From Gammaproteobacteria bacterium (GTDB lineage: Bacteria; Pseudomonadota; Gammaproteobacteria; Steroidobacterales; Woeseiaceae), in assembly GCA_013151645.1 (NCBI GenBank), contig JAADHU010000005.1, positions 1 through 64,000 on the forward strand: a stretch of 64,000 nucleotides of DNA, in the 5' to 3' direction. The notes under the pieces are model-generated. The model was given only the letters and a program-made list of their open reading frames with translations, did not search any database and had not been told where the DNA came from. Of the stretch, positions 4,844 to 47,526 are shown one piece after another; the stretch's first letter is position 1, and every line of letters starts with the position of its first letter. Both the position numbers and the translations under genes were made by a program.

Positions 4844-4980
4844 GTGCTACGGACCCGCGTGGCGAAGTTGGCTTCTGAGACCCGCTGCAAGTACATCCAT
4901 GTAAGCTCGGGCCCCGCATCCCTGCGGGGCACGGTCTCAGAACCCAACTTCGCCACACGGGTCCTTGATCGTGGTTCACA
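4844..4980. repeat. 137-bp palindromic repeat, copy A
   Basis: A long imperfect palindrome lies between the convergent 3' ends of the Smr gene and truD. The left arm 4851-4882 and right arm 4933-4964 pair at 30 of 32 positions around a 50-bp core (4883-4932). The core holds two further hairpins: TACAT-cc-ATGTA, and GCCCCGCA-tccc-TGCGGGGC. The outer ends are GTGCTACGGA and CCTTGATCGTGGTTCACA. The same element, also 137 bp, recurs inverted at 47390-47526. It carries no plausible gene. It could work as a bidirectional terminator, but I see no U-tract. Confidence 0.9.
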
Positions 4981-30489: not shown

Positions 30490-30545
30490 CCGGGTTATGC
30501 CTCCGAACACCCCATGCGCAACCCCTTTTCAGGTGGGGCACCCAG
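30490..30545 (-). promoter_or_regulatory. Candidate S2 autoregulatory leader of rpsB
   Basis: The rpsB 5' leader can form alternative stems: CCCC (30535-30538 region) can pair with GGGG at 30522-30525 or, as CCCCA, with TGGGG at 30510-30514. The rpsB leader is known to bind S2 for feedback control in gammaproteobacteria. That this one does so is inferred from position and pairing only. Confidence 0.35.
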
Positions 30546-30574
30546 CGCGATGTGACGGTGTACGTGTGGATTAA

Positions 30575-30603
30575 TTGCCTCTTGGGCGCGCGCTTTATAC
30601 CAT
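30575..30603 (+). promoter_or_regulatory. Weak sigma-70 promoter candidate for map-glnD
   Basis: TTGCCT (30575-30580), 17 bases, TACCAT (30598-30603) faces map. Its -10 overlaps the -10 of the rpsB promoter on the other strand, so the two would exclude each other. Confidence 0.3.
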
Positions 30604-47389: not shown

Positions 47390-47526
47390 TGTGTACCACG
47401 ATCAAGGATACGCGTGGTGAGATCAGTCTCTGAGACCGTGCCCCGCAGGGATGCGGGGCCCGAGCTTACAGGGACGTACTTGCAGCGGGTCTCAGAGACT
47501 GATCTCACCACGCGTCTCCGTAGCAC
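47390..47526. repeat. 137-bp palindromic repeat, copy B (inverted relative to copy A)
   Basis: Arms 47406-47437 and 47488-47519 pair at 31 of 32 positions around a 50-bp core that differs from the copy A core at only two positions. The arm sequences, however, match copy A at only about 23 of 32 positions, with the changes mirrored in the opposite arm. It lies between the stop of the giant surface protein and the start of the helicase gene, both on the minus strand. Confidence 0.9.

Follow-up and report, generated by a model that had tools for sequence, protein, structure and literature searches.

A mobile palindrome dispersed in Gammaproteobacteria has a structured, strand-specific twin-hairpin core

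Introduction

Functions have long been lacking for the palindromes that are dispersed through bacterial genomes. ERIC is an intergenic palindrome of about 127 bp, and the element described here is an intergenic palindrome of like size. MITEs are, like the element, short, intergenic, and non-autonomous, but its palindrome sits in several unrelated outer contexts rather than within one TIR type. REP and BIME sequences (RAYT transposases) are dispersed extragenic palindromes too; REPs are 20 to 40 bp long with GTAG or CGTC tags (PMC3733652), whereas the element is 114 bp long with a conserved twin-hairpin core.

A second comparison is with RNAs linked to the regulator CsrA. The CsrA/RsmE site is an ANGGAN hexaloop in which N is variable, and CsrA bridges dual sites that are 10 to 63 nt apart, optimally by more than 18 nt (PMC7652899). 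The regulatory RNAs CsrB/C and RsmX/Y/Z present ANGGAN hexaloops closed by C-G at a spacing suited to dual-site binding (PMC7652899), as the element does, but the element differs from them in having exactly two sites, a very long stem, many copies per genome, and no recognizable promoter. TwoAYGGAY RNA (RF01731) consists of two hairpins with A-Y-GGA-Y loops and is a proposed CsrA binder (PMC4333381), the same principle as the twin GGA loops of the element. Finally, the Yersinia sRNA Ysr224 (RF02770) has the core in common with the element, ...CGCcGuaAAuaCauCCaUGUAgGCuCG...GCGCCaUCCcuGGCGC..., and we found no account of Ysr224 as dispersed, mobile, or CsrA related. Here we describe what is, on good support, a dispersed mobile palindrome with a structured and strand-specific twin-hairpin core.

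Results

Two copies of the palindrome in the window

The window is a stretch of 64,000 nucleotides from a gammaproteobacterial assembly (GCA_013151645.1, contig JAADHU010000005.1, positions 1 to 64,000), in which a sequence-only reading had reported a 137-bp palindromic repeat at 4844-4980 and, inverted, at 47390-47526. Both copies were found there and aligned end to end, with two differences over the central 62 bp, the number that had been given for the core. The arms within each copy paired nearly perfectly, as had also been reported, and the arm differences between the copies were compensating. The flanking genes were checked and bore out the siting of both copies at gene ends: the Smr and truD genes converge on copy 1, and copy 2 lies just 3′ of the stop codon of a gene for a DUF11/OmpA protein and upstream of a gene for a DinG-like helicase, in an orientation that places the TCC strand in the mRNA. 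The conserved unit, however, is narrower than 137 bp. It spans 114 bp, made up of a 26-bp arm, a 62-bp core, and a second 26-bp arm, and the rest of each 137 bp is outer end and less conserved. The features of the window are as follows.

4851..4964, minus strand (GGA, the proposed functional RNA strand): 114-bp palindromic unit of copy 1; match to covariance model R1 (G000:C5, 121 bits); in alignment A2
4877..4938, minus strand: conserved 62-bp core of copy 1 (GAGAC...GTCTC)
4892..4903, minus strand: hairpin 1 of copy 1, UAC-AUGGAU-GUA on the minus strand
4911..4930, minus strand: hairpin 2 of copy 1, GCCCCGC-AGGGAU-GCGGGGC on the minus strand
4844..4850, no strand assigned: outer left end of copy 1, GTGCTAC, less conserved in the alignment with copy 2 and other copies
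4965..4980, no strand assigned: outer right end of copy 1, TTGATCGTGGTTCACA; some relatives have the core flipped with respect to these ends
47406..47519, plus strand (GGA strand): 114-bp palindromic unit of copy 2; match to covariance model R1 (G000:C5, 125 bits)
47432..47493, plus strand: conserved 62-bp core of copy 2
47467..47478, plus strand: hairpin 1 of copy 2, UAC-AGGGAC-GUA on the plus strand
47440..47459, plus strand: hairpin 2 of copy 2, GCCCCGC-AGGGAU-GCGGGGC on the plus strand

The core pattern matched twice in the window against 0.00 matches expected. Folding z-scores of the window copies ranged from -9.5 to -12.5, and no shuffled sequence folded equally well on either strand. 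The core was not part of any known IS end. Rfam searched at the gathering threshold returned nothing at the element; elsewhere in the window, t44 RNA (RF00127) was found at 30494-30586 on the minus strand with 64.7 bits.

The core folds as two hairpins on a long stem

The fold was assessed by covariation among copies. In alignment A2, 94.4% of cells were paired, 31 pairs were changed on both sides, and the covariation score was 0.597, compared with 0.168 for shuffled alignments; slid structures scored no more than 0.10. The wider alignment A3 gave 94.6% paired and a covariation score of 0.894 against 0.186 shuffled, figures that lean toward the model structure, as A3 was fitted to the model. 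When RNAalifold was run unguided on A2, the stem and hairpin 2 were recovered. An alternative hairpin 1 proposed by RNAalifold (A2 columns 37-39 with 50-52) was rejected, as it breaks in the wider set, where the TAC/GTA stem covaries. Hairpin 1 is thus TAC-NTCCNT-GTA, below which lie a 5-nt bulge and a 3-bp stem, and its stem varies together with its complement (TAC/GTA, CCC/GGG, TCC/GGA, CAC/GTG, and GCC/GGC). Folding of single sequences misses the exact hairpin 1 loop because of the 5-nt bulge. We conclude that a 62-bp twin-hairpin core stands on a stem of about 31 bp, the sequence of which is free while its pairing is kept. The arm pairing of a palindrome could come from template-switch correction instead of selection.

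The family is widespread but patchy within one class

The core was not confined to two sites: about 21 matches were found in the genome from which the window derives, and others were found in relatives. In that genome (G000; 3.96 Mb in 83 contigs) the core pattern matched 21 times and the reversed pattern 0 times, and several copies lay less than 80 bp from contig ends, as expected of a repeat that breaks assemblies. The pattern also found copies in 6 of 60 genomes of relatives, a patchy distribution. Covariance model R1, built on the TCC strand from 36 copies in six genomes, had matches at E ≤ 1e-4 in 68 of the 369 class genomes searched (61 of 272 genera), often with at least 10 copies per element-bearing genome. 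In a sample of the phylum, 26 of 398 genomes carried the element, and all 26 belonged to the class of the window. Among the matches displayed, the twin-hairpin core was kept almost always and the arms were wholly different between lineages; within one genome, the core sequence was close among copies. In one genome (L228, G599:C1:94413-95437), five copies lie in tandem at a spacing of about 227 bp, an array that resembles a BIME. Searches by core strings and topics found no published description of the palindrome family, which is weak evidence given that the subscription literature is poorly covered.

Copies are insertions

Orthologous sites were compared among relatives. The Smr/truD spacer that holds copy 1 lacks the element in two relatives (G003 and G006) and has a truncated copy in the sister species (G001). 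Copy 2 has an orthologue in the sister species that differs at 1 of 62 core positions, a free loop N, and at 7 and 8 positions in the 26-base arms, which indicates that this insertion is older than the species split.

In another relative (G008), the palindrome lies within 224-bp MITEs that have TIRs ACTGCTGTCCC, ends ACTGCTGTCCCATAAA, and 11-bp TSDs such as GGGACGGACCC. The same MITE ends surround copies in G390 and G347, and one G390 copy likewise has both TIRs and a TSD. Moreover, among copies in which the direction of the core with respect to the outer ends could be resolved, the core was flipped in 7 of 21 in G008 and in 2 of 6 in G001. A search of G008 with the ACTGCTGTCCC pattern returned the 224-bp copies together with a small number of ends that had no partner, and no autonomous element was reached with the terminal pattern GTCCTTGATCGTGGT. 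A Y1 transposase was matched once in the window's own genome. We conclude that copies are insertions and that in at least one genome they reside inside MITEs with TIRs and 11-bp target duplications. Of the natures that the sequence-only reading had offered for the repeat, a non-autonomous mobile element is therefore supported by the patchy distribution, the empty orthologous sites, and the copies with TIRs and 11-bp TSDs in a relative.

Several observations concern the surroundings of the insertions. The copies with flipped cores, which have a flip-flop-like appearance, are L100, L102, L103, L069, L053, L112, and L114 in G008 and L052 and L068 in G001. The Smr/truD spacer holds different palindromes, for example, GGGGTCGAACCGCTAAG...CTTAGCGGTTCGACCCC, in G008 (L239/L245), G013 (L242), and G018 (L238), the ends of which are GGGGTCGAAC and the insides of which are variable but complementary. 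Ends of the GGGGTCGAAC type also flank copies L014 (G000) and L064 (G001), which indicates that the repeat is nested there in a second palindromic family. The TSDs of the 224-bp MITEs (G008; L065, L100, and L108) have a consensus like GGGxCxGACCC, and their sequence suggests that the MITE may target the ends of the other palindromes.

One strand is kept foldable

A mismatch in a palindrome arm that is a G-U pair on one strand is a non-pairing A-C on the other, and the two strands can therefore be compared without reference to any motif. Arm mismatches were G-U on the GGA strand and A-C on the TCC strand in 149 cases, and the reverse in 39 (P = 2e-16), and the bias toward G-U on the GGA strand was seen in 22 genomes versus 5. 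R1, which was built on the TCC strand, would as a search model push the bias the other way. The bias was the same for copies with the TCC strand (37:11) and the GGA strand (21:7) in the sense of transcription, and mutation linked to transcription is therefore an unlikely cause. In the window copies, the GGA strand is also the more stable, at -84.4 and -84.9 kcal/mol compared with -78.2 and -81.3 kcal/mol for the TCC strand. These results support selection on folding of the GGA strand, as RNA or as single-stranded DNA, and together with the class-wide covariation the strand-specific tolerance of wobble pairs lends support to the earlier suggestion of a structured RNA. We note that a palindrome with a free stem sequence and pairing kept on one strand is a natural test for selection at the RNA versus the DNA level.

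The loops fit a dual CsrA site

Each of the two core hairpins has an NTCCNT loop. TCC was present in both hairpins in 36 of 36 copies, the next base being variable, and the final T was nearly or fully invariant. A second tally, of 165 copies, was prefiltered on TCC in both hairpins, the printed exceptions being mainly loop deletions and broken stems; in it, the bases flanking TCC each took all four identities and the closing pair was always C-G. The loops were spaced 20 nt apart in 158 of the 165. On the GGA strand the two loops become C-ANGGAN-G, in which GGA is invariant and both N positions are free. Both hairpins, in the 36 and in the 165 copies, thus have the CsrA/RsmA loop, ANGGAN closed by C-G with N free, and the 20-nt spacing falls within the 10 to 63 nt of dual-site CsrA/RsmA binding. 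On the GGA strand, hairpin 1 of the window reads UACAUGGAUGUA in copy 1 and UACAGGGACGUA in copy 2; the CsrA SELEX consensus is RUACARGGAUGU (PMC7652899). The Rfam families for CsrB, RsmY, and RsmZ gave no match in the window or at the loci tested, nor did RF01731 with a window copy (E ≤ 10) or with twelve diverse loci (E ≤ 1).

The presence of csrA in host genomes was also determined. Among the matches listed, PF02599 (csrA) was present in 56 of 57 genomes with the element and in 224 of 257 without it, all at least 90% complete (Fisher P = 0.01), a test that ignores phylogeny and in which reduced genomes may lack both. The element-bearing genome that was not among the listed csrA matches, G253, looks complete. 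In the window's own genome, which is 98% complete, no canonical csrA was found, and a single CsrA was found that is divergent (67 amino acids, 43 bits). The divergent gene lies at L234:1501-1704 (G000:C5, at about 119 kb) and follows a putative FlgN-like open reading frame.

We lean, with modest confidence, toward a palindrome that is mobile but non-autonomous and that, as GGA-strand RNA, would bind a CsrA dimer. Counting against this reading are the TCC-sense excess among co-directional copies described below, the lack of a promoter signal into the element, and the divergence of the one CsrA found in the window's own genome. The GGA-strand RNA would probably be made by read-through rather than from a promoter of its own, and it would hold the two loops such that one CsrA/Rsm dimer could bind both at once. 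Binding may protect or localize the transcript or may titrate CsrA, and it would explain why the core stays conserved and the arms are left to drift.

An unlikely alternative, to which we nevertheless give some weight, is a MITE- or REP-like selfish palindrome, the GGA strand of which folds as single-stranded DNA with its loops recognized by a transposase or a protein of replication and without a role for CsrA. G-T is better tolerated than A-C in DNA too, and such tolerance would fit the wobble bias. The insertions with their TIRs and TSDs speak for DNA-level folding, as do the core flips (7 against 14 unflipped in G008 and 2 against 4 in G001), which are expected of DNA-level events between the arms, and the absence of any inward promoter signal on either strand when the flanks were scored. 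The TSD-bearing unit, however, is the outer MITE with TIRs of its own, such that a transposase need not read the core. Moreover, folding as DNA does not predict that loop positions should be fixed or free exactly as in a CsrA site, nor does it predict the 20-nt spacing.

Gene context and the relationship to Ysr224

By simple open reading frame calling, the median distance from a copy to the nearest gene was 36.5 bp, and copies lay between convergent genes in 44 cases and between divergent genes in 16. Co-directional copies were TCC-sense in 46 cases and GGA-sense in 20 (18:8 per genome, P = 0.08), and genes pointed into the left end of the element in 90 of 126 cases. The TCC-sense excess argues against a simple 3′ untranslated region sponge in which the GGA strand is made by upstream genes. 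Such an excess could arise if GGA-sense insertions were selected against, a selection that would presuppose an active GGA strand.

The view that the repeat resembles nothing known needs amending, as some members match Ysr224. Copies from G627 and G738 scored 85 to 100 bits, above the Rfam cutoff of 70, whereas window copy 1 scored 17.3 bits and by the Rfam rule is not a member, and most other members tested scored 22 to 25 bits. The Ysr224 model is 107 nt long, represents the TCC strand, and stops inside the palindrome, without the 31-bp stem. We take Ysr224 to be one branch of the palindrome family seen in truncated form. The recorded transcription of the TCC strand in Yersinia counts against the GGA-strand model without excluding it.

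Could the TCC strand be the one that works as RNA, as in Ysr224, with UCC loops that pair with the GGA of Shine-Dalgarno sequences or with a hairpin that stabilizes the 3′ ends of upstream mRNAs? The strand matched by Rfam, the 46:20 bias, the genes that run into the left end, and the short distance to them are what such a role would give. We nonetheless consider it improbable, as non-pairing A-C mismatches are tolerated on the TCC strand (149:39), in an antisense loop the base after UCC would not be free to vary next to an invariant U, and the Ysr224 model has the look of a fragment.

Equally close core sequences among the copies of one genome would be found in neutral debris of old MITEs, with the core kept by gene conversion or recent spread and the arms by replication template switching. 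Quasi-palindrome correction can correct arms within copies, and the within-copy arm correction could have arisen in this manner. Such an origin is very improbable, however, as the loop pattern and spacing persist over dozens of families with unrelated arms, gene conversion within a genome cannot hold a loop consensus between families, and the wobble asymmetry distinguishes the strands.

The bidirectional terminator that the sequence-only reading had also offered has in its favor the strong hairpin and the gene-end siting, including the excess of convergent contexts, but it is very improbable, and intrinsic termination is contradicted by the data: five consecutive T at 14 nt or less from the end of the stem occurred in 1 of 189 copies on one strand and 0 of 189 on the other, a scan found no terminator-like site at the element, and conserved internal twin hairpins would be superfluous for termination.

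Reach of the family

If the element does carry bivalent CsrA sites, mobile repeats would be tied to a global regulator in much of the class, the orphan Rfam sRNA Ysr224 would be explained, and hundreds of natural insertions would be available in which to measure CsrA occupancy and effects on neighboring genes. More tentatively, and in our estimate with the chances somewhat against it, the mobile palindromes may form a class-wide, genome-dispersed sponge or tether for CsrA/Rsm of which Ysr224 is one exponent. Each insertion would then add a bivalent CsrA-binding hairpin to a read-through RNA, and a selfish repeat would rewire or buffer a global posttranscriptional regulator.

Mobile replicons were also searched. 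With blastn, the core of the window's own genome and a class consensus found no match among plasmids and phages, and viral contigs scanned with the core pattern gave none. A query shaped on the G627 copies found 15 copies on enterobacterial plasmids, and two other query shapes found no plasmid copies. Conjugative plasmids with related copies came from Klebsiella, Citrobacter, and Escherichia. On conjugative IncN and IncR plasmids of wastewater Enterobacteriaceae (L246 and L247), a gene for an iron-containing alcohol dehydrogenase is followed by a copy akin to those of the G627 branch. As for ERIC, homology was rejected: an E. coli ERIC sequence (L235) folds with a single central hairpin and has no TCC/GGA twin loops.
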